Below, piece after piece: positions 20,037-59,102 of a stretch of DNA of 64,000 nt (the first letter of the stretch is position 1; every line of letters starts with the position of its first letter). The DNA is from Natronorubrum halophilum (lineage in GTDB: Archaea > Halobacteriota > Halobacteria > Halobacteriales > Natrialbaceae). The stretch lies in NCBI RefSeq assembly GCF_003670115.1, contig NZ_QQTY01000001.1, forward strand, positions 806,001 through 870,000, in the 5' to 3' direction. The position numbers and the translations under genes were made by a program. Below the pieces are notes generated by a model. The model was not told the origin of the DNA. It made no database searches and saw only the letters and a list, made by a program, of their open reading frames with translations.

Positions 20037-20060
20037 CTTTACAGAGGTATGCTTGTAATT
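20037..20060. promoter_or_regulatory. Tripartite palindrome, site A
   Basis: CTTTACA, GAG, GTAT, GCT, TGTAATT. It matches the shared pattern TTTACA, three bases, GTAC, three bases, TGTAAA with one centre mismatch and imperfect arm ends. It lies about 20 bases upstream of the rdfA TATA box, a position typical for an activator site or an autoregulatory operator. Confidence 0.5.
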
Positions 20061-20408
20061 GTAAACTCCGTAGAATCGACGGACTGCGGGGGATAGTCCG
20101 GTCGTCCGCCGTTCGTCCTCGTTCCGAGTCGGCGTTTAGAAATCCGAGATTCGATTTCACGTTCTATCACAAAACTATCAGCGTAGCGTACTGTGTGTCA
20201 TCCTGGGATTCGGTGAGGCCGGATAGAGTCGCTACACGAGCGGGATTCTTCGCTCGAGACACCGGTTACAGAGGGCTTTTTGTCCGACGGAACCGAAGGG
20301 ATCGCAGCCGCGAATGTGTATCTGGAGATATGAATCCACCGATTCGTACCGTCCCGAAGGTCCGCTATTCCAACGCAGATCTATAACCGGGCCGAGGCGG
20401 TATACTCC

Positions 20409-20543
20409 GTGAAAACGGAACGGACGGGCCCACGAAACGACGCAAAAGCAGTAGCCGCTGCAGAGACAGCGGCGGACGACCGTGGCCTCGCCGCAAACCT
20501 CGCAGTAACGACCAACGAGGGGGTTCTCATCGCGGTTCGCTGA
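20409..20543 (+). CDS. Candidate small ORF, unknown function
   Basis: A 44-codon frame from GTG with haloarchaea-like composition (KAVAAAETAADDRGLAANLA, then VTTNEGVLIAVR). CTATAAC lies about 27 bases upstream of the GTG, compatible with a leaderless start. It could equally be the surviving end of a decayed gene. I do not recognise a family. Confidence 0.3.
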   Translation: MKTERTGPRNDAKAVAAAETAADDRGLAANLAVTTNEGVLIAVR

Positions 20544-20891
20544 ATGGACGGCACAAAGCTGGTCGCAGCCAGTATCGCTCGAGTACGAGGGAAAAGTCGG
20601 CTGCGAAGTCGGGTGCAGCGGTGGAGCCGTCTCGGCCGACGTTGCGGAGAAGCGCGATCGTTACGGCGTCAAAGGATCCCCGTAACGACGCTTCACAGCC
20701 GTATAACGCTACCCTCGGACATTACCCCCGGACGTTCTTCCACCGGCGGACGAACGAGCCGACAACCCTCCCTTTTTCGTCTCGAGTCGCATTGATCCCC
20801 TCACTGCTCCACGCGAGGGTACGCTATGCACGATCGACGGAACCCGTACTGTCCGGTATGACCGATACAACCGAGACGGGAACGAATAATC

Positions 20892-20915
20892 GTTTACGGC
20901 CGTACAAGCGTAAAC
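20892..20915. promoter_or_regulatory. Tripartite palindrome, site B
   Basis: GTTTACG, GCC, GTAC, AAG, CGTAAAC: a perfect 7-base inverted repeat around a palindromic GTAC centre. It lies between rdfA and the 3' end of the rhamnose operon, with no gene start close by. Confidence 0.55.
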
Positions 20916-21152
20916 ACCTGGAAGCCCTGTTCGGATATCCTGTTCGAGAAATCCGAGCACAGCGTTCTACGACACCTCGCACGCTCGCCCACGTTCGTCC
21001 GGTCTGTCCGGATACACTGCGTGTCACTGTACCACGAGGACAGAGTGAATCGCAAAATAACTGTTTGAAATTTTTTATGATATCGCGATCGGTAGAGCGT
21101 TTGAACCACGGTCCGTCGACGCTGACCATCGACCCGGATCAGTCCGTACGCA

Positions 21153-21458
21153 TCAGATCATTCGGTAGACTTCGTCCATCCACTGATCGGAATCGTCGTC
21201 GACGATGATGCCGTCCATCTGTTCGGCCCAGCGAGCCTGCGCGTCGCTCGTCTCCATGACCTCCTTGATCGCCTCCGGATTCTCGAGTTCTAGAAAGCCG
21301 AAGACGTGGCCGTCCTGCTCGAAGACGCTGTAGGTCTCGAGTCCGGCGTCGGAGTCGAGGTAGGCGTCCTCGAGCCAGTCGGGGACGCTCTCGTGAGCAT
21401 CACGGTATTCGTCGCGCTTTCCGTCGGCTATCTGCAGGTGGAACGCGATTCGAGCCAT
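21153..21458 (-). CDS. L-rhamnose mutarotase family protein
   Basis: A 101-residue protein of the RhaM/DUF718 type (MARIAFHLQIADGKRDEYRD), close to the family's usual 104. It would speed exchange between alpha- and beta-L-rhamnopyranose in the cytoplasm and so feed the rhamnose dehydrogenase step. The start at 21458 follows the family; the 26 residues before it in the open frame look unrelated. It is the last gene of a minus-strand set with the LLM oxidoreductase, L-rhamnonate dehydratase and a symporter, which supports the assignment. Confidence 0.8.
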   Translation of the reverse strand: MARIAFHLQIADGKRDEYRDAHESVPDWLEDAYLDSDAGLETYSVFEQDGHVFGFLELENPEAIKEVMETSDAQARWAEQMDGIIVDDDSDQWMDEVYRMI

Positions 21459-21618
21459 GCGTTCTTCCCCTCGAGCGACGTACCCATAGCTATTACGCAG
21501 TGTCCGTCCGCCACGCGCGAGGAACTCGCCTTGCACGAAGCCGAATCGTCCTGCATGCGGTTGGAGCGTTCGAAGACGGGACCGAACCCAAAAATGCGGC
21601 TACGGCGGGAACGGAACG

Positions 21619-22650
21619 CTACCGGAACTGCGGCATCACTTCGTCGGCGAACAGTTCCATCCCGCCGGTGTCGGGGAAGTCGACGAACCAACACTGGAAC
21701 TTCGTGACGCCGGCGTCGATCCGTCGCTGGATCGCGTCGGCACACTCCTCGGGCGTACCCATAATGAAGTACTCGCTGGCGATCTCCTCGGTCGTGATGT
21801 CGGCCTGATCGACGTACTCCTCCTCGAACTGGATCGGGATCATCAGATCGAGCAGTCGCTCGTACTTCTCGGGATCGCGCGTACAGATGACGTGGCCGTC
21901 CCAGGAATACTCGATCTCGTCGGAGTCGCGGCCGACCGTCTCGCAGTGGTCTTCGATGACGCCGATCTTGTGCTCGAGGGTCTCCGGGGTCCCGTTGAAC
22001 ACGTCCGTGTTCCAGATATCGGCGTGCTTTGCGACGAGTTTCAGCGTCACCTCCTCGCCCTGGCCGCCGACGAGGATCGGCGGGTGTGGATCCTGGACCG
22101 GTCCGGGATCGCAGTAGGCGCCATCGATCTCGTAGCGATCGCCCGCGAAGGAGGCCGCCTCGCCGGATTCGGTGGCCCACATGGCTTTCATCAGGCGGAT
22201 GCTCTCGTCCAGGCGCATCAACCGCTCGAAGCCGTCGCGGTACTCCCAGCCGTAGGCCTCGTACTCGGGTTCGTGCCAGCCGGCACCGAGACCGAGTTCG
22301 AGGCGGCCGTCGGAGACGATGTCGAGCGTCGCGGCCATCTTGGCGACCAGCGCGGGGTTGCGGTAGTCGTTACAGAGGACGAGCGAGCCGAGGTTGATGT
22401 CCTCGGTGAGGCCAGCCAGCGCGGACAGTAGCGTCCAGCACTCGTACTCGGCTCTGTCGCGACCGAGCATGAGGTGGTCCGGTGCCCACGCGGCATCGAA
22501 GCCGAGTGCCTCGGCTTTCAGGACGCCCTCCTTCGTCGTCTCCCAGTCGAGTCGCTCGTAACACGGGGTGTCGCGGTGGACGGGGTCGGTTCCCGACTCC
22601 GGCGCGCCCGCGAACACCGGCACGTTGTACTCGAATGTGACGTCGGTCAT
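21619..22650 (-). CDS. LLM-class flavin/F420-dependent oxidoreductase
   Basis: A 343-residue luciferase-like TIM barrel. Family features include FDAAWAPDHLML, NLGSLVLCNDYRNPALVAKM, RLELGLGAGWHEPEYEAYG and VGGQGEEVTLKLVAKHADIWN. The class uses FMN or coenzyme F420; haloarchaea make F420, and F420-dependent glucose-6-phosphate dehydrogenase belongs to it. The gene starts one base after the stop of the L-rhamnonate dehydratase gene, so it is tightly coupled to rhamnose catabolism. A role as the rhamnose (or 2-keto-3-deoxyrhamnonate) dehydrogenase is my inference; the sequence alone shows only the superfamily. Confidence 0.82.
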   Translation of the reverse strand: MTDVTFEYNVPVFAGAPESGTDPVHRDTPCYERLDWETTKEGVLKAEALGFDAAWAPDHLMLGRDRAEYECWTLLSALAGLTEDINLGSLVLCNDYRNPALVAKMAATLDIVSDGRLELGLGAGWHEPEYEAYGWEYRDGFERLMRLDESIRLMKAMWATESGEAASFAGDRYEIDGAYCDPGPVQDPHPPILVGGQGEEVTLKLVAKHADIWNTDVFNGTPETLEHKIGVIEDHCETVGRDSDEIEYSWDGHVICTRDPEKYERLLDLMIPIQFEEEYVDQADITTEEIASEYFIMGTPEECADAIQRRIDAGVTKFQCWFVDFPDTGGMELFADEVMPQFR

Positions 22651-22651
22651 G

Positions 22652-23857
22652 TTACTCGACGGCGAAGTGTTCCAGCGCATCGTGATTCAGCTGGGTACTG
22701 ACGCCGGGTTCGTCCGGGAGCGGAATCGACCCGCTCTCGGGCGAAGGTGGGTTCTCGAAGATCGCGTCAGCGTAGGTCGACTCCTTCTCTTCTTGCTGTT
22801 CTTGGAACCATTCCGGAGTCGGAAAGTACTCCGCCATGGGCATGTTCGTGTGCGCCGCGATGGCGTGCAGCGTCGGATTCGTGCCGGCGTGCGGGATCAC
22901 GGGCACGTCGTGGACTTGGGCCATGTCGGCGACCTTCATCAGTTCCGTGATGCCCCCAACCCGGCCGACGTCGGGCTGGAGGATGTCGACGGCCTCCGCT
23001 TCGAGGAGGTCCTCGTGACCCCAACGGGTGAACTCGTGCTCGCCCCCGGAGATCGGCATCGGCGCGGCTTCGCGAACCTCGGCGTAGCCGTCGATGTCGT
23101 CGGCGATGACCGGCTCTTCGACCCACGCCATGTCGTACGGCTCGAGGCGATCGAGCATCTTCTTCGCGTAGCGGACCGACCAGCCCATGTAGGCGTCGGC
23201 CGCGATCTCGAGCTCGTCGCCGACGGCGTCGCGGACCGTCTTGACGACCTCCTCGTTCTCCTTCATCCCCGAGCGGCCGGCCTCCGGCCCGTGAAGGAAG
23301 CGCAGTTTCACGGCGTCGAAGCCCTCCTCCGCGTACTGGATGGCCTCGCGTTCGAGCGTCTCCATGTCAACGGGGTGGAGGTTCGACGCGTAGGCGGGGA
23401 TCTCGTCTTTCGTGGGGCCGCCGAGCAGCTCGTAGACCGGTTTATCGGCTTCCTTGCCCGCGATGTCCCACAGTGCTTGATCGACCGCGCTGATCGCCAT
23501 GACGGCGACACCTTTCCGACCGAAGGGGAGCGTCGCGCGGTACATCTGCTCCCAGAGTTTCTCGCGCTGGGTGGGATCTTCGCCCATCACGATCTTCGAG
23601 AGCGTCTCCTCGACGACGGTGGCGATGGCGCCGGTTCCCCAGTTACCGACGCCGACGCCGGTGATCCCGGCGTCCGTCTCGACCTCGACGACAACGTCGC
23701 CCACGGGACCCATCCACTTACGGCGTGCCTGGGGGTTCTCGCCGTCAACGTTCCGGTACTCCTCGTACTTCGACATGATCGTGACGAGGGGGAACTCGAT
23801 AAACTCGCCCCACGACTCGTTGCTGATCTTGGTTGCAGTGACGTCTGTGATTTCCAT
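22652..23857 (-). CDS. L-rhamnonate dehydratase (enolase superfamily)
   Basis: Dehydrates L-rhamnonate to 2-keto-3-deoxy-L-rhamnonate. The 401-residue protein has the mandelate racemase/enolase layout: capping domain, then a barrel with metal ligands in AADAYMG (Asp), WVEEPV (Glu) and ISGGEHEFTRWG (Glu), and the catalytic His in IPHAGTNPTLHA. The GGEHEFTRWG stretch is characteristic of rhamnonate dehydratases. The ATG at 23857 was preferred to a TTG three codons earlier. Its context with a mutarotase, lactonase and FAH hydrolase in the same window fits the oxidative rhamnose pathway known from Haloferax. Confidence 0.9.
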   Translation of the reverse strand: MEITDVTATKISNESWGEFIEFPLVTIMSKYEEYRNVDGENPQARRKWMGPVGDVVVEVETDAGITGVGVGNWGTGAIATVVEETLSKIVMGEDPTQREKLWEQMYRATLPFGRKGVAVMAISAVDQALWDIAGKEADKPVYELLGGPTKDEIPAYASNLHPVDMETLEREAIQYAEEGFDAVKLRFLHGPEAGRSGMKENEEVVKTVRDAVGDELEIAADAYMGWSVRYAKKMLDRLEPYDMAWVEEPVIADDIDGYAEVREAAPMPISGGEHEFTRWGHEDLLEAEAVDILQPDVGRVGGITELMKVADMAQVHDVPVIPHAGTNPTLHAIAAHTNMPMAEYFPTPEWFQEQQEEKESTYADAIFENPPSPESGSIPLPDEPGVSTQLNHDALEHFAVE

Positions 23858-23973
23858 AGTAGTCAATCCCGATAGATTCGTGTCGAGATGTGAGAAACAG
23901 CCATATAAGTGTTTGCGATATCGGCTGGATTATCGGCTGCACCGACCGAGAATCTTCGAGTCGGGGCGACCGA

Positions 23974-24243
23974 TTAGAAGATATCTGCGCGGACGAGCAG
24001 TGCGAGTGCGACGACCACGTATATCGCACCACTGATGAGATTCATGGCCATGGGGTTCCACGGCGCGTCCGACGGCATCTCGGCGACCAGCGGCGTAATG
24101 AGAACGAGCAGACCCATGATCGCGATGATCGTGCCGGCGTACAGATCGATCGGAAGATCGTACCCGTCGGCGTCGGATTGCGCTCGAGTCCGCGAGTCGT
24201 CTATCGGTTCGTCCTGGGTCTGCGTGATGGATCGGTCTGTCAT
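23974..24243 (-). CDS. Small two-helix membrane protein linked to the symporter
   Basis: An 89-residue protein with a charged N-terminus of about 33 residues and two membrane helices (AGTIIAIMGLLVLITPLVAE and GAIYVVVALALLVRADIF). Its ATG lies 4 bases after the symporter stop, so the genes are co-transcribed. The DAPWNPMAMNLISG loop recalls SPW-repeat proteins, but I am not confident of that. It may be an accessory subunit of the transporter. Confidence 0.7.
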   Translation of the reverse strand: MTDRSITQTQDEPIDDSRTRAQSDADGYDLPIDLYAGTIIAIMGLLVLITPLVAEMPSDAPWNPMAMNLISGAIYVVVALALLVRADIF

Positions 24244-24247
24244 GGGT

Positions 24248-25879
24248 TCACACCTGGAAGAGGAGGATCGCGACGATGAGCAAGGCGATTCCGACCGAGA
24301 CGGAGACGGCCGCGATTCGTTTTACGCGCGGACTGAGGGTGGCGGAGTCGTCGTCGAGCGCCGACTGGACGAAGTTCGTCGGCGTCTCGTGGTCTTTCGG
24401 CGCGGTGAGGAGGCTCCCGACCACGACGACTCCCGTCACGAGCAACAGGGAGTAGAGCGATCGGGAGTACAGCGCCTCGTGGCCGAGTTCGAATCCCATG
24501 TACACGCTGACGGCTAAACCGATCGCGATGCCGAGTATCGCGCCCGTGCTCGTCGACCGATCCCAGAGCCCGCCGACGATGGCCACGGCGGCGAACGTCG
24601 GCATGATCGTCGCGAGGACCGATTGCGCGACGAGGTACATGGAATCTTCCAGCGAAAACATGTACGCAACGCCGATGCAGGCGACCATGAACACGACGCC
24701 CGCGATACGGCCGATCCGCACGTAGTGTGCCGGGCTCCGGTCCGGCGCCACGTACCGGCGGTAGATCCGCTCCGTAAAGAGCGTCTGGAAATTGTTGAGC
24801 TGCGAGTCGACGCTCGAGAGGACGCCGGCGATCAGTCCGACCACGACGACGCCGTACAGTCCGGGCGGCATGACGTCGTTGATCAGCATCGGCATCGCGT
24901 GGTCGGCGACGTCGAGGTTCGGGTACAGAACGGCGGCGGCGAGACCCGGAAGGAGGATGAACAGCGGGACGAGGATGGCGTACCAGATGCTCGTGTACAG
25001 GTACCCGATCTGCGCGGACTCCGCGTCCTCGGCCGACAGCGGCCGCTGGAGGATCTGCGATTCGGCGCTCCAGTAGGAGATCGCGGACGCGAGGAACCCG
25101 AAGTACAGCAGGAAGACGGCGATCGGACCGTCGACTGGGAACTCGGCGGCCAGCGGGTGATCCGAGGGCGTCATGGACGCCTGGTGGGCTTCCAGGCCCT
25201 CGATCAGCCCGGAGATCCCGCCCACCATGTACAGCGTGACCGGAAGCAGGAGGACCAGCGGGACGAACATGAGGACGAACTGTATGGTGTCCGACCCGGC
25301 GACGGCGCCGAACCCGCCGAGAATCGTGTAGGCCGTTCCGACGACGATGATCACGCCCATCGACAGCCAGAGGTTCCAGCCCAGTAGTGTGTTCAAGACG
25401 AGCGACCCGGCGTAGATGTACAGGCCCATGTTGACGAACATCCAGACGAACGTCCAGATGAAGTCGTACGCGTCGCCGACCGGTCTCGAGAACCGTCGGG
25501 TGAGCCATTCGCCAAGCGAGAACGCCTGTATCTGTCTGATGAACGGAATTATCGCGATCGTCGCCAGCACGATGGCGATCGCGTTCGTGATGGGGCCCAG
25601 CAGGACGATGATCCCGTACGCGTACGCGAACCCGGCGAGACCCAGGAAGTCGTTCGCGTTCAGATTGGTCGCGACGGTCGAAAACGCCTGAACCGACGGC
25701 GGCAGCGACCGGTCCGCGAGGAACGTACTCGCCGAGTCTGCGGTATTCTGGCGCATGTAGGCGCCGAATACGATCAGACCGAGCATGAAGACGCAGATGG
25801 CCATCCATTCGGTAAGTACGAGCGTCTGTCCGCCGATGCCCTGGAGTGGACGAAGCCGTATCGTGTTAATTATACTCAT
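24248..25879 (-). CDS. Sodium:solute symporter (SSS family), probable sugar or uronate importer
   Basis: A 543-residue carrier with about 13 membrane helices. SSS features include NLNANDFLGLAGFAYAYGI, GGFGAVAGSDTIQFVLM (the GGxxAVxxTDxxQ region) and GLIAGVLSSVDSQLNNFQTL near helix 8, which includes sodium-site residues. The start MSIINTIRL at 25879 lies about 30 bases after a TATA-like TTTTTATTATGG. It is the first gene of the unit leading to the rhamnonate dehydratase, LLM oxidoreductase and mutarotase, so L-rhamnose or a related acid is the likely substrate (inference from context). Confidence 0.88.
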   Translation of the reverse strand: MSIINTIRLRPLQGIGGQTLVLTEWMAICVFMLGLIVFGAYMRQNTADSASTFLADRSLPPSVQAFSTVATNLNANDFLGLAGFAYAYGIIVLLGPITNAIAIVLATIAIIPFIRQIQAFSLGEWLTRRFSRPVGDAYDFIWTFVWMFVNMGLYIYAGSLVLNTLLGWNLWLSMGVIIVVGTAYTILGGFGAVAGSDTIQFVLMFVPLVLLLPVTLYMVGGISGLIEGLEAHQASMTPSDHPLAAEFPVDGPIAVFLLYFGFLASAISYWSAESQILQRPLSAEDAESAQIGYLYTSIWYAILVPLFILLPGLAAAVLYPNLDVADHAMPMLINDVMPPGLYGVVVVGLIAGVLSSVDSQLNNFQTLFTERIYRRYVAPDRSPAHYVRIGRIAGVVFMVACIGVAYMFSLEDSMYLVAQSVLATIMPTFAAVAIVGGLWDRSTSTGAILGIAIGLAVSVYMGFELGHEALYSRSLYSLLLVTGVVVVGSLLTAPKDHETPTNFVQSALDDDSATLSPRVKRIAAVSVSVGIALLIVAILLFQV

Positions 25880-26004
25880 TCCGCGTTTCCACAGCCAACA
25901 CACTCCATAATAAAAACTCGTATTGTCGTTCAGGTATTGATCGTTCGTTCAGAAGAGGAGCCGCCACCGTGAAGCGGGATCGACGCACGAACGCCGGAAC
26001 GTTC

Positions 26005-29000
26005 CTACGCCACCGAGAACTCGTACGCGCCGGAGCCGAATTCGACGACGACGGTATCACCGTCTTTGCGGACGGATCGAACCCCCGCCGTGTCGGTCGA
26101 CAGCGGCGTCCCGGACTCCGTCACGTCACTCGTGGCGGCGTCCGGTAAGTGGACGGTCGCGTCCGTGTTCCAGGGAACGGTCACGGACAGCTCGTACGTC
26201 GCGGCGTCTTCGTCGCGCCGACACTCCACCGCGAGATCGCCGTTTCGCGTCTCGAGAGCAGCCGAGACCCACTCGAGATCGTCGACGAGCGCCGGCGCGA
26301 TGGTCACGTGGTCGGTCACGGAACGGTCGCCGATTCGGATCCCCGCGAGTACCTCGTAGAAGAACTCCGAGACGTGAGTGAACGGCGAGTGGTTGAACGA
26401 GTTCATACCGTCTCCGATGCGGTCGTCGCTGTCCCAGCGCTCCCACATCGTCGTCGCCCCGTTGCGGGCCATGTACACCCACCCGGGTCGTTCGGGTTGG
26501 CTGACGACGTCGTAGGCGACGTCGGCGTGGCCGTGCGCGGCGAGCGAGTGGAGGAGCGGTCTGGTCCCGAGGAATCCCGTTTTGAGTGTGCGGCCGTCGG
26601 CGTCGACTTTCTCGACGAGATTGTCGACCACCGACTCGACTTCGGCGTCGGGGACCAAGTCGAGAAAGAGCGGGACCGCGTACGACGACTGGGTTCCGGG
26701 CCCGTACACGCCTTGGTCAGGGTCGAAGAACCGGTCGTTGAACGCCTCCGCGATCCGGTCGGCGCGGTCGCGATACGCCTCCGCGTCCGCGTCGTTCTCC
26801 AGGGCGTCGGCGATCTTCGCGAACGTATCCGTGACCTGATAGAGGAACGCCGTGTTGTACAGGTCGTGGGGGAGACCGCGCCGATCGTCCACGTTCTCGA
26901 AGGCGAGCCAGTCGCCGTACTTGCCATAGTCACCGGTGAGGATCCCGTTCTCGGTGACGGAGTACCAGTAGTCGACGTAGTCGCGCATCCCCTCGTACTG
27001 TTCCCGAAGGATGCGTTCGTTCCCCTCGTGTCGGTAGAGGTACCAGGGGATCATCACCCGCGTGATCGACCACGTCGGATCAGCGGGGTCCTCGCTCACC
27101 TTGTTCGGGATGACGTCGGGAACGTACCCCATCTCCGAGGCGGCGTCGTCGTGATCGCGGGCCCACTTTTCGTCGAACCGTGCCGCGTCGAAGTTGAACA
27201 GGAGCGACCGGGTCGAGATGTGGGCGTCGCCCGTCCACCCGAACCGTTCGTCGCGCTGCGGGCAATCCTCGGGAACGGAGTGCGTGTTCCCGCGAAGTCC
27301 CCAGACGGCGTTGTGTTGGACCTGATCGAGATCCTGGTTGGAGCACGAAAACGTCCCCCGTCGGTCCATCGCCGTGTGGACGGCCTTCGCCGTCACGAGA
27401 TCCGGATCGAACTCGCCTGGATACCCCGTGACCTGCGCGTATCGAAAGCCGTGATAGGTGAACCGTGGTTCGTACCGCTCGACGTCGTCCCCGGCGGCGA
27501 TATAGACGTCCGTCGCGTCCGCGGTTCGGAGATCGGTCGTGGAGAGGTCCCCATCTTCGGTGAGCCGTTCGGCGTGTCCGAGGACGATCTCGTCGCCGTC
27601 GTCCGGGTCTCGGATCTCGAGGTCGAGCCAGCCGGTCAGGTTTTGTCCGAAGTCGAGGATCGGGCCGTCCGGATGCTCGTGAACCGTCTCCACGTCGAAC
27701 GTCTCTACGACGCGCATCGGCTCGACGCGCTGCGGTCGAAGCACCCCACCCGGATCGTCGACGACGGCCGCGGGATTCCAGTCTCCGTCGTCGAACCCCG
27801 GCGACCGCCACCCGTCCTCGGACAGTCGGGCGTCGAACAGTTCGCCGTCGTAGATGTCGTTCTCACGGATCGGGCCCTCCGTTGCCGTCCAGTCACCGTC
27901 GGTCGCGACCGTTCGCGTCGATCCGTCCTCGAACGTCACGGTGAGCACGAGCCGGGCGCGCGGAGACCCGTCGGGGACCCAGTAAGCGCCCCGCTTCGAG
28001 AACCATCCGCGGCCCAGCCACACGCCGATCGCGTTCATCCCGACCGAAATCCGATCGGTCAGATCGTGACTCGAGTAGCAGACGCGCTGCTCGTAGTCCG
28101 TCCAGGCGGGGTTCAGTCGGTGATCGCCGACCCGTTCGCCGTTGGTGTGGAGTTCGCCGTACCCGACGGCGGCGAGGTGGGCGCGGGCCGACTCGATCGG
28201 TTCCTCGACGGAGAATTCCGTCCGCAACAGCGGCGACGCCGCCGCCATCTCGGATTTGGTGTGCCCGTTCACGAGGTGATCGCGGCCCCACGTATCGGTC
28301 TCCGCGGACGATGAGGCCTCGACCGGTCGTCCGCGGGCCAGGTCCTCGTCGCCGTTTCGCACCTCGAGCGCCGCCAGTGCGAAACACTGCCAGGCGTCGA
28401 CGTGTTCGGTCCGACGAGCCGCACTCTGTGCGTGAGACGACTCCTCGGCGAGCGGTTCGAACGCGAACGGCTCCATCGCGGTGACCCGCACGTATCGACC
28501 GTCGGCCTCGAGACCGTCGTGAGCGTGAACGACCGCCGTCTCCTCCGGGACGCCGTCCGGTACGTCGTCGACCGCCTCGTCGGACGCGTTGACCTTGAGG
28601 ACGGTCGTCGCGGTTTCGAAGTCCGGATCGTCCGCGACCTCGACTCGATAGGCGTCCGGAAAACCGAAGCCCTCGAGCGGGTCGTCGAACCAGGACGACG
28701 TGACTGCCGCGTCGTCGGGGGTTCGGACCACCGTGACCGGTGACGCCGGATGGAGGTCGACCGCCGTGATCTGCTCGCTGGAACCGAGGTCGACCTGAAC
28801 CCACTCTTCGACGCGTTCGTCCGCGCGCCGCCACCGACTTCGCCAGCCGTCGGTGTCCCCCGCGCCCGGTTGGTGGGTGATCCACTCGCCGCGCCACCGT
28901 TCGGGACGGAGGGCCGTGAAGAACGAAGCCGATTCCGCCCATTCCGTTGCCCCCTCATCGGTCCACACTTTTACCGACCAGTGATACCGCTTGTCGGAAC

Positions 29001-29271: not shown

Positions 29272-29273
29272 GC

Positions 29274-29286
29274 GGTGAATTTCACC
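29274..29286. promoter_or_regulatory. Palindrome at the start of the GH78 gene
   Basis: GGTGAATTTCACC has arms GGTGA and TCACC around three bases, immediately before the ATG of the rhamnosidase gene. The half-sites match those of the operator-like palindrome in front of both zinc dehydrogenase copies, though the spacing there is one base. Confidence 0.4.
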
Positions 29287-30781: not shown

Positions 30782-30908
30782 GACGGCCCCCGACGGACGT
30801 TCCGAAGCGGGATCCGCGGACGGCATTCAGCCACCCGTCGGGGACGAACGCCCCCTCGGCGGACAGCGGTGGATCGGATCGCTCGAGTACTCGAGTACCA
30901 ACGACTGA

Positions 30909-40162: not shown

Positions 40163-40164
40163 GA

Positions 40165-47398: not shown

Positions 47399-47578
47399 GT
47401 GACGGACCGGCACGGACGTCTATTACAACAGTACACGTGTAATGTGTGTGGCATCGTCACGAACTCGCACGTGTGGTATACACACGCGGACGCAGCAGAG
47501 CAGCAGTACACGGTCTCGGCGATCGATCTCGAATTCGATAACGGAGCCAATTCATTCCGACAGCAACAGTGCGTTTAA
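47399..47578 (+). CDS. Candidate small zinc-finger-like ORF or gene remnant
   Basis: A 59-codon frame from GTG reads YTCNVCGIVTNSHVWYTHAD and AAEQQYTVSAIDLEFDN, with one CxxC pair. The in-frame sequence upstream to 47282 (DGELRTIVENEV) also looks coding, so this may be the tail of a decayed gene. It contains palindrome site C, which weakens the case for a functional gene. No family recognised. Confidence 0.3.
   Translation: MTDRHGRLLQQYTCNVCGIVTNSHVWYTHADAAEQQYTVSAIDLEFDNGANSFRQQQCV
47422..47443. promoter_or_regulatory. Tripartite palindrome, site C
   Basis: ATTACA, ACA, GTAC, ACG, TGTAAT: perfect 6-base arms around GTAC, same geometry as sites A, B and D. It lies in the convergent gap between the GH115 gene and a small membrane protein gene, so it is not an obvious promoter element. 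Confidence 0.55.
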
Positions 47579-48060: not shown

Positions 48061-48129
48061 ATTCGTACCGTCGTCCATATCGTACATATATGTTTTGTCG
48101 AACCGTCCGCTCGAGGAGGAGATAACTGG

Positions 48130-50264: not shown

Positions 50265-50333
50265 TCGTTGTCCTCTCGTAGCGAACTGCAATCGGTGTCA
50301 TAGTCCTGTCGTCGTTACTATTCATCGGTCGGC

Positions 50334-51335
50334 TCACGAGTCGGGCCCTCCGTCGTCGTCGATCGTCGACGCGTGACGCGCCCTGAGTCGAACGTTGAAC
50401 ACGCTGTCCATCCCCTGGGAGAACAACACGAGTCCGAACGACATCAGGAAGATCGTCAGTAACGGAAACGCGAGGAAGTGATACATGTCCGGCCGGCTCA
50501 ACGCGTTCCCCTCGTAGGCGATGTTCATCATGACGCCCCAGTTGAACGTCGTGAACGGGAGGATACCCAGGAAGTACAGTCCAACGGACTCGAAGATGAT
50601 GCGTCGAGACGCCAGCGCCGAGTTCACCGTTACGTAGGGCATGAGCTGGGCGAGCACGTCCCGCCGAAGGATCGTCCCCGTGGAGATACCCATGATCTGT
50701 GACGCCTCCACGTACGACTCCTCCCGGATGCTGAGTACCTGCGACCGCACGGTTCTCGCCAACCCCGGCCAGTTGTCGAGTCCGAGCAAGACGCCGATAA
50801 CGTACGGGTCACCGGGCTGGAAGATGGCGATGAGGACGATGACCAGCGGGAGTCCGGGGATGGTGATGATGACGTCCGTTATCGCCATCAACGTCGTGTC
50901 GATCTTCGAGCCGCGGAGGAACCCCGAAACGACGCCGACCAGCGCCGCGAGTCCGACGCTCACGACCGCTCCGGCGAACACCATCCGGAACATATCCGGC
51001 GTCGCGTGAATGAGTTGGGCTCCGATCGGCTGTCCGAAGGTGTCCGTCCCGAGAATGTAGTCGACGTTCTGGAACGGCGGCTCGAGAACGGGAGCGTCGC
51101 CGCTCGTCGGTCTGTCGACGAGCCAGACGCCGAGGGTCCCCATCAGGAAGAAAGCGGAGATGATCGCCGTCCCGACGACGGCTCGCCAGTCGGTCATCGC
51201 CACTCGGAAGGGGGCGGCGACGTACAGGTCGAACTGGCGTTTGAGCCGTTGCGACCGCGGCGTCGGCTCCCGGTCGATATCCGCATCGAAGAGCGTTTCG
51301 AGCCCCTCCGGATCGTCGGGCTGTTCGTTACTCAT
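50334..51335 (-). CDS. ABC transporter permease (DppC/OppC type)
   Basis: A 333-residue inner-membrane subunit with six helices. A cytoplasmic N-terminal stretch of about 45 residues precedes the first helix (VVGTAIISAFFLMGTLGVWL). The periplasmic-side sequence LGTDTFGQPIGAQLIHAT and the EAA-like loop EASQIMGISTGTILRRDVL are typical. It overlaps the DppB-type gene by 8 bases. Confidence 0.92.
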   Translation of the reverse strand: MSNEQPDDPEGLETLFDADIDREPTPRSQRLKRQFDLYVAAPFRVAMTDWRAVVGTAIISAFFLMGTLGVWLVDRPTSGDAPVLEPPFQNVDYILGTDTFGQPIGAQLIHATPDMFRMVFAGAVVSVGLAALVGVVSGFLRGSKIDTTLMAITDVIITIPGLPLVIVLIAIFQPGDPYVIGVLLGLDNWPGLARTVRSQVLSIREESYVEASQIMGISTGTILRRDVLAQLMPYVTVNSALASRRIIFESVGLYFLGILPFTTFNWGVMMNIAYEGNALSRPDMYHFLAFPLLTIFLMSFGLVLFSQGMDSVFNVRLRARHASTIDDDGGPDS

Positions 51336-52347
51336 CGTTACCTCCGGAGGAGATCCGGGGATCGATGAAGCCGTACGTCAGATCCGCGATCAGGATCGAA
51401 ACGACCGTTACAAGGGTGAAGACGATGAGCGACCCCATGAGAACGGGGTAGTTCCGTACCTGGATGGCATCGTACACCAACAGTCCGACGCCCGGGTACG
51501 AGAAGATTTCCTCGACGATGACGGAGCTGCTGAGCACGCCGGCGATGCCGATCATGAACTGGGTGTACATCGGCAAGATGGCGTTTCGACCCACGTACTG
51601 GGTCGCAATGCGGGAGTTTCGGAGTCCGCGTAGCTCCGCCACCCGGAGGTAGTCTTCCCCGAGGACGCGGACGGAGTTGCCCCGCATCGTCAGCGCGGTG
51701 CCGAGTCCGAGGATGCTCATCGAGAGCACCGGTAGTGCGGCGTGGTGTGCGATACTTTGCATGAACGCCAGGTTAAATCCCTCTTCAACACCGAGTCCCA
51801 CCCGACCGCCTGTCGGGAAGAACTTGTTCCGAATGCTGAAAAAGAAGATGAGCAAAATCCCTGCGACGTAGTACGGCGTGGAGTTGAGCGCGATAACGGC
51901 GACCGACGACACCGAGTCGAATCGGGATTTCTCCTTGAAGGCCATCACCGCGCCGAGCACGATGCTCACCGTGTATCCGATAACCATCGCGTAGACGCTG
52001 ATGAGCATCGACCACGGGATCCGTTCGGCGAGCAGCGAGGTCACGGTGGCGTCCTCGTAGAGCGACTCGCCGAGGTCGAACTCGAGGAAGACGCTGGTCA
52101 TGTACTGGTAGTACTGGACGTATATCGGCGCGTCGCTCTCGATGTTCGTATACTGTGCGACCAACCGTTCGACTCGCGCCGGATCGATCGTGTTCCCGGT
52201 TCCCATCTGTTGCTGTAAGATGACATTTTTGAGCGCCTCGGCCGGTCCGCCCGGCATCAGCTGATACAGGACGAACGTGAGTGTCACCGTTGCAAAAAAC
52301 GTCAGCACTGCCTGTCCGACGCGTTTCACGAAATAATTACTTCTCAT
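51328..52347 (-). CDS. ABC transporter permease (DppB/OppB type)
   Basis: A 339-residue membrane protein beginning YFVKRVGQAVLTFFATVTLT, with the family's LMPGGPAEAL after helix 1. The usual first periplasmic loop is present, as is the EAA loop RVAELRGLRNSRIATQYVGR. Together with the DppC-type subunit it forms the channel. It lies 62 bases downstream of the binding-protein gene. Confidence 0.92.
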   Translation of the reverse strand: MRSNYFVKRVGQAVLTFFATVTLTFVLYQLMPGGPAEALKNVILQQQMGTGNTIDPARVERLVAQYTNIESDAPIYVQYYQYMTSVFLEFDLGESLYEDATVTSLLAERIPWSMLISVYAMVIGYTVSIVLGAVMAFKEKSRFDSVSSVAVIALNSTPYYVAGILLIFFFSIRNKFFPTGGRVGLGVEEGFNLAFMQSIAHHAALPVLSMSILGLGTALTMRGNSVRVLGEDYLRVAELRGLRNSRIATQYVGRNAILPMYTQFMIGIAGVLSSSVIVEEIFSYPGVGLLVYDAIQVRNYPVLMGSLIVFTLVTVVSILIADLTYGFIDPRISSGGNDE

Positions 52348-52409
52348 GTACCTTCTTTTCGATCGGTATTCGAACTCTCACTGGTATAGTGTCTGTGGTT
52401 GAGACGGTG

Positions 52410-54185
52410 TTAGTTGCGCGAAATCAACCCGCTCGTCAGCGCCCACGGTCCAGGGTTGGGCCGATCCAGACGAGTCTCGTCCGGATCGGGGAAGCTGAAG
52501 TTCTCGACGTCGCCGCCGAAGCCGCGATTTTCCTGCATGTGGACGATCGACGGCAGTTCGAAGTTGAACCACTGGACGAGTTGCTGGGTCAGTTCGATCG
52601 TCTCCTCCTCGGACGATGCGCCGTTCAGGTCGGTCATGAGCTGGGCCGGGTTGATCTCGACGCCGTTGCTCCCGACCTCTCGTGCGCCGACTTCCTCGGG
52701 AATTTCGGTCGAGAACGGCACGCCGGTCGGCCCGGTATCGTTGCTGCTGCCCTGGTCGCCTGCGAGGATGCCGTAGAAGTTGTTCGAGAAGTACGCCGAC
52801 GGGTGCCAGAACGGAAGCGCGACGTGCCAGATCCAGGCGATGTCGAACTCCCACTCCTGGAGCTTCGAGTAGTAATCCTGGCCGATCGCCTCCATCTCCG
52901 TGTCCATACCGAACCCGTTCAGTTGGTCGCTGAACACCTTCGTCGGCTGAGACTGTGCGACGGCGGACTGCGTGATGATGTCGAAGGAGATGCTGTCGCC
53001 GTCGGGGCCGACCCACGTCTCGTCCTCCAGGGAATAGCCGGCGTCTTCCATGTGTCCGCGCGCCGTTTCTTCGTCGGCTTCGACGGGGTACTGAATGAGC
53101 TGATCGGTAAAGCCCTCACCGAGGTACATCTCCTCGATGGTCTCTCGGATGCCCGTCTGGACCTGCGTCGGCGTCGCAAGCATCCCCGTCTGCGTCGCCG
53201 CGTCGACGATCGAGGGAATGTCGATCGCGGAGATGATCGCCCGGCGAACCGAGCGGTTCGCGAGGTGCTTGTTGTTCCAGTTCAGCATGTACTTCTGGCA
53301 GTTGTAGTGGCTCAGCTCGTAGATGTTCTGGAGGTTATCGGGGTACTCCGAACGCTGGCTTTCGGCGATGTACTGCGTCATGTCGAGGTCATTGCTCTTC
53401 TCGAGTTGCTCGACTTGCGTCCCGGATTCGACGTTCGGCAGAACCCGGATCTCCTCGATGTCCGTCCGGTCCGCCCACGGGTGATCGTCCTGCTTCACCG
53501 CGAGCGTCTCGGAGGAGTTGAAGTCCTCGATCTTGAAGAGCGTGCTCCCGAGACCCTGGTCGACGAACTCCTCCGTCGAGATGGTCATCTGGAGGAGGTC
53601 GTTAGTGACGTCCTCGCGGGCGCTCTCGCCGGAGGCGTCCTGGTAGCGCTCGAGATACTCGCCAAAGACGGATTTGGGCGCTTCCATCCCGTAGCCCGCG
53701 TTCAATTTCGCAACGGTCGGCGAGATCTCGTCCTTGTAGATTCGACGGACGGTGTACTCGTCGACCAGTTCGTGCCCTTCGATTGGCGACCCCTCAGGAT
53801 CCTGGTACCGATCGATCTCCGCCGCGACGAAGTAGTCTTCGGCGGTGATGTCGTCCCCGTTCCAGTAGCTCCAGTCGGTCGGGAACTCGACCGTGACCTC
53901 GTTCCCGTCGACGCTGAGTTCCTCGAAGAAATCCGATGAGACCGACCCGTCACCGTGTGCCGAGATCGTCCGCTGCAGCCAGTAGATGCTGTACGTTTGC
54001 GCGTAGTTCGCCGGGTTCCAGGGGTTGAAATGTACCTGCGTCGCCGGACGACCGCCTTCGAACGCCGTAACGAACCTCGAGCTATCCGTGCTACTCCCCA
54101 TACAGCCGGCCAGTGCTGCCGCGAGCGTACCGCCGCTGGCACCGACAAACGTACGTCTACTCAGATGACAGTGGTCTCTGTTCAT
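52410..54185 (-). CDS. Solute-binding lipoprotein, family 5
   Basis: A 591-residue exported receptor. The leader has a Tat motif (LSRRTFVGASGGTLAAA) and lipobox ALAGC, so the mature protein is lipid-anchored at the outer face. The body shows the family 5 pattern (WSYWNGDDITAEDYF, NRSVRRAIISAIDIPSI). Family 5 receptors bind peptides but also cello- and other oligosaccharides. It is the first gene of the transporter unit, and its position among glycosidase genes suggests pectic oligosaccharides (inference). The start MNRDHCHLSRR at 54185 was chosen for the shortest intact Tat leader. Confidence 0.9.
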   Translation of the reverse strand: MNRDHCHLSRRTFVGASGGTLAAALAGCMGSSTDSSRFVTAFEGGRPATQVHFNPWNPANYAQTYSIYWLQRTISAHGDGSVSSDFFEELSVDGNEVTVEFPTDWSYWNGDDITAEDYFVAAEIDRYQDPEGSPIEGHELVDEYTVRRIYKDEISPTVAKLNAGYGMEAPKSVFGEYLERYQDASGESAREDVTNDLLQMTISTEEFVDQGLGSTLFKIEDFNSSETLAVKQDDHPWADRTDIEEIRVLPNVESGTQVEQLEKSNDLDMTQYIAESQRSEYPDNLQNIYELSHYNCQKYMLNWNNKHLANRSVRRAIISAIDIPSIVDAATQTGMLATPTQVQTGIRETIEEMYLGEGFTDQLIQYPVEADEETARGHMEDAGYSLEDETWVGPDGDSISFDIITQSAVAQSQPTKVFSDQLNGFGMDTEMEAIGQDYYSKLQEWEFDIAWIWHVALPFWHPSAYFSNNFYGILAGDQGSSNDTGPTGVPFSTEIPEEVGAREVGSNGVEINPAQLMTDLNGASSEEETIELTQQLVQWFNFELPSIVHMQENRGFGGDVENFSFPDPDETRLDRPNPGPWALTSGLISRN

Positions 54186-54447
54186 GATACCCACGGGCTA
54201 TGTGTCACAATCCACCCTTATGTAATTTTGGGTGATACTCCCCTGAAGATCATGTTATACCGCGATAGCTGCGTCCCGAATCGTCTCCGCGCTCAGGAGA
54301 TGATGCGAGCGACGTTCGGTGAAACTCCGAACGGGTGGTGTCAAACGACTCACTCGTATCGATCCGCGTCACGTGTAGCGATTTCTTCGAGTCCACTCCT
54401 TCGGACGGGTATCGATCTCGGACCGGATACGAACGAAAGACGATCGG

Positions 54448-54672
54448 TCACGTGCTCCGTCGCGAGCAGAGAACCATCATTCCGAGCGAGAACGACCCGA
54501 CCACGACGAACGTGACGATCTGCACCACCGTGATCACGTACGTGCTCGTTCCCCGCTCGATGGCGGTCAGCGCAGCACCCAGGACGAGTAACGAGAGCAC
54601 AGAAACCATAAACAGTAGTCGAAATCGGTGTCGGGATCGACAGAGGACATCGACGAACGTTTCTCCTGACAT
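54448..54672 (-). CDS. Small membrane protein, unknown function
   Basis: A 74-residue protein with a basic start (CRSRHRFRL) and two helices (LLFMVSVLSLLVLGAALTAI and YVITVVQIVTFVVVGSFSLG). It lies between the divergent transporter and GH42 genes. Low-complexity hydrophobic frames can arise by chance, so confidence is moderate. The flanking gaps (54186-54447, 54673-54892) hold only promoters. Confidence 0.55.
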   Translation of the reverse strand: MSGETFVDVLCRSRHRFRLLFMVSVLSLLVLGAALTAIERGTSTYVITVVQIVTFVVVGSFSLGMMVLCSRRST

Positions 54673-54892
54673 CTCGTTCGTGGTTCTCGCTCATCCATCA
54701 CAAGTGTTACTGTGTGAAACCGCGGGAGAGCCGCGTGCGTTCGTCGCGAGTCGGGGTCGTCACGAGACTGCCCCGTCGAACAGCGACAGCCGAGTCGAAG
54801 GTATTCCGAACCACTCCAAATCGATAGCGCGACGTGTTTTTTCCCGAACACCGCATGACAACGTTTACAAGGGTCGCTATGAAGTCCTACCT

Positions 54893-56902
54893 ATGTCAAT
54901 AGGAGTCTGTTACTTCCCGGAACACTGGCCGCGCGAGCGGTGGAAGACGGATATCCGGCAGATGGCCGACGCGGGCATCGAATACGTTCGAATGGCCGAG
55001 TTTTCGTGGCGCGTGCTCGAGCCCGAACGCGGCGAGTTCGACTTCGAGTGGCTCGACGAAATCGTCGACCTGATCGGCGAGTACGGAATGCAGGCCGTCC
55101 TCTGTACGCCGACGGCGTCACCGCCGCGATGGCTGGTGGCGGACCGCCCCGAAATCCTCCAGACGGACCGCGACGGAACGGTCAGATCGGTCGGGAGTCG
55201 CCGTCACTACTGTTTCAACTCGACGGCGTATCGCGAGGAGACCGAACGCGTCGTCAGTGCGATGGCGGAGCGCTATGCCGACGAGCCGACGGTCGTCGGC
55301 TGGCAGACCGACAACGAATACGGCTGTCACGGAACGACCCGCTGTTACTGCGACGACTGTACCACCGCGTTCCGGGACTGGGCTCGAGAAAGATACGGGA
55401 CCGTCGACGCGCTCAACGACGCGTGGGGAACGACCTTCTGGAGCCAGCAGTACGACGATTTCGAACAGCTCGACGTCCCCCGCCCGACGCCCGCACAGGA
55501 TCACCCCTCGCTGGTGCTCGACTTCGCCCGCTTCTCGAGCGATAGCGTCGTCGAGTACAATCGGCTGCAGGCGGATCTCCTGCGCGAAGCGAACGACGAG
55601 TGGTTCGTCACGCACAATTTCATGAACCTGTTCGAGTCGCTGGACGCCTACGACTTCGGTGACGACCTCGATCTGATCTCGTGGGACTCGTATCCGACCG
55701 GTCACGCCCAACAGGCCGCCGGCGAGACGACGCGCGACGAACTCCGTGCGGGCAATCCCGATCTGCTCGCGTTCAACCACGACCTCTATCGGAGCGTACT
55801 GGACCGCCCCTTCTGGGTGATGGAACAACAGCCGGGAGACGTCAACTGGCCGCCTCACTCCGCACAGCCCGCAGCGGGAGCGATGCGCCTGTGGGCGCAC
55901 CACGCGACCGCTCACGGTGCCGATGCGGTCGTCTACTTCCGCTGGCGACGGTGCCTCGAGGGACAGGAGCAGTACCACGCCGGCCTTCGAAAGCAAGACG
56001 GGACGCCGGACCGTGGCTATCACGACGCGACGCAGACCGCTGGGGAACTGTTCGACGTCGACGACGTCGACGCGCCCGTCGCCGTGGTTCACGACTACGA
56101 GAACGCGTGGGCGCTCGGCGAACAGTCCCACGCCCCCGATTTCGACTACTGGCAGCTGTTACAGTCGTTCTACGCGGCGCTTCGAGCTCACGGCGTGCAG
56201 GTCGACATCGTCCCCCCGGAACGCGATCTCGAATCCTACGACGCGGTCGTCGCCCCCGCCCTTCACCTCCTAACCGAATCGGTGGCGGACCGGTTGACCA
56301 AGTATGTCGAATCCGGCGGCGAGCTGCTGCTCGGCCCGCGGACGGGCGTCAAGGACGAGTCCAACAAGCTCCGGTCCGACCCCCATCCCGGTCCACTCTC
56401 CGCCCTCGTCGGCGCGACCGTCGACCAACACGAGACGCTTCCGGCGCAGTTCGAGCGGACCGTCGTTCGCACCGACGACGCGCACACCGACTACGCGTTC
56501 CGGACGTGGGCCGAGTGGCTCACCGCCGATGCGGCCGAGTCGCTGCTCGAGTACGCGGGCGACGATATCGAAGCCGGACGAACGGCGGCCGTTCGAAACG
56601 CGGTCGGCGAGGGTCGCGTCGTCTACTGCGGCGTCTGGCCCGAGACCGACCTCGCAAACGACCTCGTCCGTTCGCTCCTCGATCGCGCCGGCGTCCGCCG
56701 CGCGGATCCGCTCCCCGAGGGCGTGCGCGTCGCCCAACGGGGCGGCTACACGTGGGTGATGAACTTCAGGAGCGATCCGATCGCGGTGACGGTCGAATCG
56801 GACGCGTCGTGGCGACTCGGCGGCTCGAAGGTCGATCCGTTCGATCTCGCGATCGCCGACGCCGACGTGGTCGACGGCCTTTCCGCGCGGGTCCTCGAGT
56901 AG
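54893..56902 (+). CDS. Beta-galactosidase family GH42
   Basis: Hydrolyses terminal beta-D-galactosides; in pectin-using organisms it acts on galactan side-chain fragments. The 669-residue protein opens MSIGVCYFPEHWPRERW. Acid/base Glu142 lies in QTDNEYGCHG, nucleophile Glu311 in WVMEQQPGD, and a zinc cluster (Cys145, 151, 153, 156) follows, as in thermophilic and halophilic GH42. A trimerisation/glutamine-amidotransferase-like middle domain and a small C-terminal beta domain follow. There is no signal peptide. The upstream in-frame extension to 54335 is rejected because its first 186 codons are Arg/Thr-rich non-coding sequence. Confidence 0.94.
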   Translation: MSIGVCYFPEHWPRERWKTDIRQMADAGIEYVRMAEFSWRVLEPERGEFDFEWLDEIVDLIGEYGMQAVLCTPTASPPRWLVADRPEILQTDRDGTVRSVGSRRHYCFNSTAYREETERVVSAMAERYADEPTVVGWQTDNEYGCHGTTRCYCDDCTTAFRDWARERYGTVDALNDAWGTTFWSQQYDDFEQLDVPRPTPAQDHPSLVLDFARFSSDSVVEYNRLQADLLREANDEWFVTHNFMNLFESLDAYDFGDDLDLISWDSYPTGHAQQAAGETTRDELRAGNPDLLAFNHDLYRSVLDRPFWVMEQQPGDVNWPPHSAQPAAGAMRLWAHHATAHGADAVVYFRWRRCLEGQEQYHAGLRKQDGTPDRGYHDATQTAGELFDVDDVDAPVAVVHDYENAWALGEQSHAPDFDYWQLLQSFYAALRAHGVQVDIVPPERDLESYDAVVAPALHLLTESVADRLTKYVESGGELLLGPRTGVKDESNKLRSDPHPGPLSALVGATVDQHETLPAQFERTVVRTDDAHTDYAFRTWAEWLTADAAESLLEYAGDDIEAGRTAAVRNAVGEGRVVYCGVWPETDLANDLVRSLLDRAGVRRADPLPEGVRVAQRGGYTWVMNFRSDPIAVTVESDASWRLGGSKVDPFDLAIADADVVDGLSARVLE

Positions 56903-57133
56903 CGTGAGGAAGCGATTCGGGTCGGTGGACGCGGAGTACGAAGACATCCTCGTGGAAATAGTCTCGAGCGCCGAATAACCGTCCCGAGTCGGCTTTTCTA
57001 CATGAGCGCGACCGAAGCGGACGGTTTCGTCCGTTGGTATCGCACTGAACGCGCGACCACTGCCCGATCGCTGGATCGGCGGTCGACTGTCTGATACCCA
57101 TACTAATTTAGTCGTTCCGGGCGAAGACGGGGT

Positions 57134-58209
57134 ATGAGTCGGAGTAACCGTGCGGCCGTTCGCGTCGGCGTTCGAACCCGTTCTCTCTCGAGAGGTAGAT
57201 TACGATATGTCCGACAGCTCGGCGCGACGGACATCTTCGTCGATCACGCCGACACGGACGAGGAGCCCGACGAATTCAACGACCGCGACGGCTCCGAGAC
57301 GATCTCGGTCGGCCCCGGTCAGATTCCGTCAGTCTCGGAACTCACGGCCGCTCGAGACCGCATCGAAGACGCGGGACTATCCTTTACGGGCATCCAATCG
57401 CTCCCGTATTCGATGTACGGCGATATCATGTTCGGCCGCGACGGTGCGGACGAAGCGCTCGAGCAGATCACGACCCTGATCCGAAACCTCGGGGAAGCCG
57501 GCGTCCCGGTGTTAGGATACCAGTGGAACCCGCGGGGCGTCGTCCCGATGCGGACGTCGCCCGTCGAGACGCGAGGCGGTGCCGAGGCGACCGCGTTCGA
57601 TTACGACGAACTCGACAACCCGGACGACTCTCGCCCGATCTCAACCGAACGTACACCGAAGCCGAGTTCTGGGACAACTATCAGTACTTCCTCGAGACCG
57701 TGATTCCGGTCGCGGAAGCGGCCGGCGTCGACCTCGCGTTGCACCCGGTCGACCCGCCGGTCCTCGAGTCCCTCGGGGGCATTCCGCGGCTGTTCCGTAA
57801 CGTCGAAAACTTCGAGAAGTCCATGGATCTCGTCCCGAGCGACAACCACGGACTGAAGCTCTGTCTCGGCTGTTTCTCGCAGATGGGCGAGGACGTCACC
57901 GACGTTATCCGCCGCTTCGGCGAGCGCGATCAGATCGTGTTCGTTCACTTCCGCGACGTCGTCGGAACGGTCCCGGAGTTCCACGAGACGTTCGTCGATA
58001 CCGGCAACTTCGATACCGGTGACGCGGTGAGAACGCTCCACGACATCGGATTCGACGGGGCGGTGATTCCCGACCACGTACCGAAGATGGAGGGCGACGA
58101 CGACTGGCGACACCGAGCGCGTGGATTCACCGTCGGATATCTTCGCGGCGTGATCGATACCGTTCGGTCGGAATCGACGCGGCCGACGCAGGTGACGGAG
58201 GTCGAGTAG
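57134..58209 (+). pseudogene. uxuA: Mannonate dehydratase (UxuA-like), frameshifted
   Basis: Would convert D-mannonate to 2-keto-3-deoxy-D-gluconate in uronate catabolism. Two frames join near 57630. The first (57134 to about 57631) ends its family sequence at YDELDNPDDS; the second resumes with PDLNRTYTEAEFWDNYQYFL and ends EVE. Family motifs are present: LALHPVDPP, GLKLCLGCFSQMGEDV, FVHFRDVVG and VIPDHVPKM. Removing one copy of the TC repeated at 57629-57632 restores a single frame of about 357 codons. It is either a genuine recent mutation or a sequencing error. The gene follows GH42 by 231 bases. Confidence 0.8.
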
Positions 58210-59102
58210 GCCGGTCACCCGGCACGTCCGTCCGCAAGCGCCTATCGTTTCCTCCCGGAACCGCACCTCGTCGAACGACCCTCGAGTTCCGACCGTACCG
58301 ACTCGTTCGGTGCGATCGGAGAGCGCTACGGTGTCGTCCCCGAGCGAGAACAATCGACCGACTCGCCCTCGTCACCACGTAGCCGGGTTGTCGATGCCGT
58401 TCGACGACGATGACGGGATCGATTCCGAGGGATCATCCGAAAATGACGCTCCCGAGAGCTTCGACACTGTCCTGTTTTCGTCGAAGGGACCATCGGTGCT
58501 GATATATCAGCTACCGATCCCATCGATATTTGAAGACGGTCCTCGATTCACCCTATACCGTCCGGTGGTGCCGAATGTACGGTGTCGGATACTGGCGTTT
58601 TCAACGGAGTGGTTTACAGAAGTACTGGTGTAAACCATTCTCCCGGTCGTCCCGCGTTGAGAGCCGGTACGCGCGTTACCTTGCGTTTTGAGTCGGAAAA
58701 CGCCGTCTCAAGACGTCGTCCGCTCTCGCCGGATGAACGACGGTGGCCAGAAATGTCTTATCCCAAACTCATCGGATACGGACCACCCGTAGATCGATTC
58801 GATTTCGCGCCCGGTGACTGTGTCCGGCACTGTCGAACCGCCGGTCGAAACGATGACTCCAAACCGACCGCGAGAGACGCAGTACACGAGAGCGAACGGA
58901 TATCACAAACGGTCGATCAATCGTCGGCATTTGAGAAGAAGGCAGTCGAGGCACGCGGCCGTCCTCGCCGAGTCGCGACGGGGCGATGACGGCCTCGAGA
59001 CCGGCTCCGGCACGATCACCGAGACCGACGGACACCGCGAGTAACACTCAAGCGCGTCCGTAGCGGCCGCTCGTCGTGATTCCGGCCGATCGCTTCCCGC
59101 AT
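58210..59102. other. Intergenic region between uxuA and dehydrogenase copy 2
   Basis: About 890 bases. Apart from palindrome D I see no complete gene. Frames at 58753-58989 (MSYPKLIGYGPPVDRFDFAP) and at the end of 58814-59044 (GDDGLETGSGTITETDGHRE) look partly coding and may be remnants on either side of frameshifts. Confidence 0.45.
58610..58637. promoter_or_regulatory. Tripartite palindrome, site D (longest copy)
   Basis: TGGTTTACA, GAA, GTAC, TGG, TGTAAACCA: perfect 9-base arms around GTAC, 28 bases in all. It is the most complete of the four copies. It lies 400 bases after the uxuA stop and 530 bases before dehydrogenase copy 2, away from any clear start codon. Confidence 0.6.

Follow-up and report, generated by a model that had tools for sequence, protein, structure and literature searches.

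We propose that four palindromes in a stretch of archaeal DNA are binding sites of RdfA, a protein encoded in the same stretch. We give this reading, as the best explanation of the observations below, a probability of about 0.84, and the palindromes are hereafter called RdfA boxes. The stretch (the window) comprises 64,000 nucleotides, bases 806001-870000 of contig C1, from a Natronorubrum genome of 4.67 Mb. The features discussed are as follows (positions are those of the window).

20039..20058, no strand: putative RdfA box 1 (TTAC type), TTACAGAGGTATGCTTGTAA; in the rdfA promoter, with the start codon 51 bp away
20894..20913, no strand: putative RdfA box 2, TTACGGCCGTACAAGCGTAA; downstream of the L-rhamnose mutarotase gene, and at the same place in H. 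turkmenica pHTUR01
47423..47442, no strand: putative RdfA box 3, TTACAACAGTACACGTGTAA; flanked by a convergent GH115 gene and an ABC transporter operon
58614..58633, no strand: putative RdfA box 4, TTACAGAAGTACTGGTGTAA; UxuA-like gene(s) on one side and a zinc dehydrogenase gene on the other
19343..19987, minus strand: rdfA, PF21811 (2.8e-71), H116/Y120 type; proposed gene of the box-binding protein
19610..19642, minus strand: codons of the predicted RdfA recognition helix, residues 116-126 (HQTVYNHLTDC), from the alignment and an AlphaFold model
20008..20026, minus strand: BRE/TATA-like element of rdfA, CCAAATGCTTTTTATAG; between the start codon and box 1, read from the sequence
17275..19272, minus strand: gene of an archaea-specific SMC-related protein (ASRP), NF045487 (685 bits); operon partner of rdfA
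21153..21458, minus strand: L-rhamnose mutarotase gene; adjoins box 2 here and in H. turkmenica

An earlier note on this DNA had described these palindromes as intergenic, with freely varying triplets, far too numerous for chance and, in three cases, away from promoters. Each of these points held. All four sites are present and are exact fits to TTACR-N3-RTAY-N3-YGTAA. The exact pattern TTAC[AG]N3[AG]TA[CT]N3[CT]GTAA was found four times in the window, as compared with a mean of 0.0 in 300 first-order Markov copies. The N3 triplets vary among the boxes and the skeleton alone is kept. None of the four boxes lies in a recognised gene, and site 1 is at the rdfA promoter while the other three are not obviously in promoter positions. 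Genes were called by a purpose-written simple finder based on codon statistics, which small genes may escape; its calls agreed well with the NCBI annotation on locus L057. The island in the window is of the rhamnose/rhamnogalacturonan type and encodes a rhamnose mutarotase, a rhamnonate dehydratase-like enzyme and an alpha-L-rhamnosidase. It is partly syntenic with pHTUR01 of Haloterrigena turkmenica, in which box 2 has its counterpart at the same place. At 57134-58209, a match to D-mannonate dehydratase (UxuA) is divided between two reading frames that overlap, so the gene may be frameshifted or broken.

The box family is larger than these four sites, with about 50 members in the genome. The pattern TTACN4RTAYN4GTAA matches 48 sites in the own genome and the same pattern reversed matches none. 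In the own-genome loci, TTAC and GTAA are 12 bases apart 52 times, and each other distance from 6 to 19 was found only 0-5 times. Thus, the genome-wide count that the earlier note had named as a check came out far above both the reversed pattern and the other spacings. The centres are GTAC (20), GTAT/ATAC (24) and ATAT (4). The box profile is sharp (WTTACRNNNRTAYNNNYGTAAW): conservation ends within one base past the arms (WTTACR...YGTAAW), and matches of intermediate score are few. Well-supported genes hold 0 of the 48 boxes, and the family is practically all intergenic. The boxes cluster on contig C3 and in a few islands, and the neighbouring genes are mostly catabolic and regulatory. Relatives of the same family have 0-43 boxes per genome, and other families have few.

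Conservation at orthologous positions, the other check named in the earlier note, was observed as well. Downstream of the L-rhamnose mutarotase gene, for example, a box lies at a distance of 259-276 bp in both this genome and Haloterrigena turkmenica. Two further examples are upstream of genes: in most of 12 genomes a box precedes the cassette IclR gene by about 550 bp, and at rdfA the corresponding distance is about 70 bp. Chance matches or a dispersed repeat of a mobile element would fit the variable flanks and N bases and the dispersed distribution. However, 48 sites against none, a single enriched spacing, and a skeleton kept at orthologous positions with free variation outside it make this explanation hardly credible. 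In genome G038 (contigs C8, C23 and C27), TTACAGTAATATTACTGTAA is identical at several places and looks like a dispersed repeat, unlike the freely varying boxes. We also considered a specificity code in the N3 triplets, and this was ruled out because the triplets vary freely even between near-identical orthologues. An RNA hairpin was rejected by inspection only: in the few asymmetric boxes inspected, the sense strand had no consistent G-U preference.

The rdfA gene stands out among the places where boxes occur. In genomes with one or two boxes (G017, G056, G060 and G001), a box adjoins rdfA. When all 256 arms were tried in 80 named RdfA loci, TTAC was found beside 40 and the runner-up arm beside 2. 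In these loci, arms at a distance of 12 were seen 82 times and those at other distances 0-1 times, except for 8 at a distance of 4. Within 3 kb and with a relaxed centre, 56 of the 80 loci have a TTAC box, 1 has a TAAC box and 23 have neither. It should be mentioned that these loci were collected from public genomes of many genera by a peptide pattern requiring His116; therefore, the scan returns His116 proteins only and tests only the pairing of His116 with TTAC. In part of the loci, the position of the box is also fixed. Of 38 rdfA loci with a box no more than 400 bp upstream, 18 have it ending 49-53 bp ahead of the first codon, with a BRE/TATA-like element next; in the window, box 1 ends 51 bp from the start codon with the BRE/TATA in between. 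Because this promoter architecture is fixed, we consider that RdfA probably autoregulates via its promoter box, in other words, from a site just upstream of the rdfA BRE/TATA.

In Haloferax volcanii, RdfA (rod-determining factor A) is reportedly needed for rod shape and motility. The RdfA of the window matches PF21811 with 239.8 bits over profile positions 1-195 of 195, the whole length. A trait of this family is an adjacent SMC-like gene, which the literature reports in 78% of cases, and the ASRP gene occupies this place in the window. Some box-bearing RdfA genes have no ASRP alongside. Confidence in the AlphaFold model of RdfA is modest (mean pLDDT 76). The model consists mainly of helices, with a four-Cys element at the C-terminus; searches of the PDB by sequence and by fold gave no match. 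In this model, residues 116 and 120 are within one predicted helix (116-126), and the helix reads like a recognition helix (SHQTVYNHL).

A second arm type is also found beside RdfA genes. RdfA paralogues without a TTAC box often adjoin the variant TAACR-N3-RTAY-N3-YGTTA, which has the identical architecture. In 61 genomes, 39 TAAC boxes were found, and about 18 of them are within 200 bp of an RdfA gene. Among the 44 RdfA genes in which residue and arm were scored, residue 116 is His in all 27 neighbours of TTAC boxes and Tyr in all 17 neighbours of TAAC boxes, without exception. Column 116 is the sole perfect separator of the arm classes among 214 alignment columns. The second best is column 120 in the same helix, which is Tyr or His with TTAC boxes as compared with Arg with TAAC boxes. 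On the RdfA tree, the arm type changes twice, as compared with a shuffled mean of 6.3, and 0 of 500 shuffles were as low; the arm type is thus coherent on the tree. Because the arm type switched only about twice, the split of 27 and 17 does not represent 44 independent events, and the strict pair test has no power. The 44 genes include a prospective set of 20, which were fetched before their sequences were read, and 20 of 20 were as predicted. Ten of these had been chosen solely by an adjacent TAAC box, and all ten encode Tyr116/Arg120. For the other ten, the adjacent arms were not known beforehand; all ten encode His116, and each locus contains a TTAC box. In one case the centre of this box is irregular, and in another the box lies on the far side of the ASRP gene.

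Both arm types occur in single genomes beside different RdfA genes. In genome G055, for example, Tyr116 is encoded by two RdfA genes and His116 by one, alongside ten TAAC boxes and one TTAC box. G050 and G052 have an RdfA with His116 and Tyr/His120 and a local TTAC box with an odd centre. The boxes might instead be bound by another protein common to these genomes, with rdfA merely the most conserved target. The promoter position at rdfA fits a mere target. However, this would leave unexplained why the arm letter goes with residues 116 and 120 of the RdfA paralogue encoded next to it and why one genome can have both arm types beside different RdfA genes, and we regard this alternative as improbable. 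Some relatives of RdfA with Trp or Pro at position 116 (in L333, L339, L340, L341 and L206) have neither a TTAC nor a TAAC box nearby, and these proteins may read other arms.

According to the RdfA reading, a symmetric oligomer would contact both outer arms via the helix containing residues 116 and 120, as the co-variation suggests. His116 with Tyr/His120 would select TTAC/GTAA, and Tyr116 with Arg120 would select TAAC/GTTA. The central RTAY, common to both arm types, would be a third contact. RdfA would act in trans on accessory islands, where dozens of intergenic boxes are found, above all beside IclR genes. That dispersed boxes are so strongly enriched beside IclR genes is not accounted for by RdfA alone, which counts against this reading.

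IclR genes are the commonest neighbours of the boxes. In the own genome, a box lies no more than 300 bp from 15 of 29 IclR genes, as compared with a random mean of 1.2, and in an independent sample 44 of 81 have a box within 700 bp. The numbers of IclR genes and boxes per genome correlate within the family (rho 0.86). In the same loci, box density is 0.62-0.70 per kb next to IclR genes and 0.18 in other intergenic regions. We therefore at first favoured the idea that the boxes are operators of haloarchaeal IclR-family regulators (relatives of XacR, RhcR, GacR and MscR). However, boxes of a single skeleton, with N bases that vary freely, accompany every IclR clade, so that nothing in them could distinguish one paralogue from another. 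Moreover, each of two IclR clades has a 17-bp palindrome of its own, TTYCG-N7-CGRAA or GTTCTCTATYYCAGAAC, which is repeated close to the promoters in the same regions and differs in geometry from the shared box. The position of the boxes near IclR or target promoters was not observed either: placement in intergenic regions is uniform and there is no TATA peak. Although the counts correlate overall, box presence does not follow IclR presence in G041, G047 and G045, which have 8, 4 and 3 IclR genes, respectively, and no true TTAC box; these genomes are without an RdfA carrying His116 and Tyr/His120. Furthermore, the arm type tracks residue 116 of RdfA. The clade palindromes, the indifference to promoters and the RdfA-linked arm type led us to drop the idea, which we now consider very improbable. 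Because boxes lie beside every IclR clade, and the clade palindromes are separate and of other geometry, IclR proteins are associated with the boxes but probably do not bind them.

Several observations concern the IclR genes themselves. TTYCG-N7-CGRAA occurs in several repeats at L046:6590-6705 and upstream of orthologous IclR genes of one clade (L131, L133, L135, L138, L139, L146, L148 and L087). This palindrome resembles the bacterial IclR consensus and is probably the operator of its own IclR regulator. Upstream of IclR genes in L123, L127, L129 and L132, GTTCTCTATYYCAGAAC is present in 2-3 copies, one of them at the promoter, and it is probably the operator of another clade. In the own genome, a TAAC-type box is located at C3:337257 with an IclR gene on either side (domains at 336179-336655 and 338006-338476). 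This pair of genes has no TTAC box within 1.5 kb, as if it were served by the second RdfA type of the genome. Across genera, rdfA and iclR are often close neighbours although the IclR clades differ (L217-L225, L077, L078, L080, L082 and L087), so RdfA and IclR proteins may work together.

If RdfA binds the boxes, the function of the boxes away from rdfA can be read in two ways. In the first, RdfA would control the transcription of a catabolic regulon in the ordinary way, and ASRP would be a cell-shape partner without a role at the boxes. The fixed promoter-proximal box at rdfA, the catabolic and regulatory neighbours and the box-bearing RdfA genes without an adjacent ASRP are consistent with this reading, to which we give close to an even chance. 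However, the dispersed boxes appear random in relation to promoters: their number per length is equal in convergent, divergent and tandem intergenic regions, they lie as far from gene starts as uniform placement would predict, and TATA-like hexamers around them show no peak. In the second, RdfA would use the dispersed boxes as anchors to bring in ASRP, by which the islands would be organised or silenced. The sequence data make this possible, somewhat short of an even chance, and by analogy with SegB and ParB the recruitment of an SMC-type protein is plausible. Without anchoring, RdfA would be a conventional regulator acting from distant sites too. For the dispersed boxes taken by themselves, ASRP recruitment and a conventional regulon appear to us about evenly balanced. 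The full proposal, in which RdfA and ASRP form a site-specific chromosome organiser, is put forward more tentatively still. The boxes would load or anchor ASRP, by which islands would be compacted, insulated or silenced and the cell-shape state tied to chromosome organisation, and the two-residue code (H116 with Y/H120 for TTAC; Y116 with R120 for TAAC) would keep paralogous pairs apart.

The earlier note had suggested the site of a dimeric or tetrameric DNA-binding protein with a chromosome-wide role, comparable in style to parS sites, or an operator of an undescribed regulon. The first idea survives in the form of one trans-acting protein, most probably RdfA, with sites across the accessory genome. 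Between parS-like site and operator, both are kept: the rdfA box is a fixed promoter element and the other boxes have no promoter preference. The task of RdfA now becomes testable as DNA binding, with dozens of predicted targets listed. Furthermore, a candidate loader and loading site are offered for an archaea-specific SMC-related protein of coalescin's family.

Among known DNA-binding proteins, several were compared with RdfA. CdrS (PMC8406309) does not fit as the binder, since its sites are promoters on the main chromosome only. CsmR (PMC13286277), to whose associated regulon rdfA belongs in H. volcanii, does not fit either because its motif is TATCA-N4-TGATA. The halolysin promoter elements (PMC6085418) are other sequences. 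SegB of the SegAB system of Sulfolobales (PMC12284271) is, like RdfA as proposed here, a small archaeal site-specific protein with sites upstream of its own gene; it has 40-50 palindromic sites over the genome and is thought to organise the chromosome. In contrast to RdfA, SegB belongs to the ribbon-helix-helix proteins and is partnered by a ParA-type protein, and its motif, TCTAGA-S-TCTAGA, lies mostly inside genes. RdfA has a different sequence, a helical model without a ribbon-helix-helix match, an SMC-related partner, no ParA partner seen here, and intergenic boxes. Bacterial ParB-parS with SMC resembles our proposal in combining a site-specific protein, an SMC-family ATPase and dispersed palindromes. 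However, no ParB or CTPase homology was detected in RdfA, the boxes are not near any identifiable origin, and ASRP loading is a proposal only. Thus, RdfA is neither ParB nor SegB by the features tested. The partner of RdfA belongs to the same ASRP family as coalescin ClsN (PMC9389158), which helps to separate a chromosome compartment of low transcription; the same paper reports no such compartments in Halobacterium salinarum. For the ASRP family, the literature found names no loader or site, unlike the proposal made here. The operators of IclR-family regulators (PMC8222616; haloarchaeal XacR, RhcR, GacR and MscR, PMC11519228) are, like the boxes, palindromes by IclR genes in sugar-catabolic clusters, and some bacterial IclR sites consist of three boxes. 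In contrast, the RdfA boxes are promoter-independent, are 20-22 bp with a central RTAY, have one skeleton in all clades, and have arms that follow RdfA. RdfA/Sph3 of Haloferax volcanii (HVO_2174; PMC10869688), described only as a rod-determining factor, is of the same protein family and has the same rdfA-SMC gene pair; that paper reports no DNA site or DNA-binding role. Here, RdfA is predicted to be a sequence-specific DNA-binding protein, with its site named to the base and two residues that would choose the arm.
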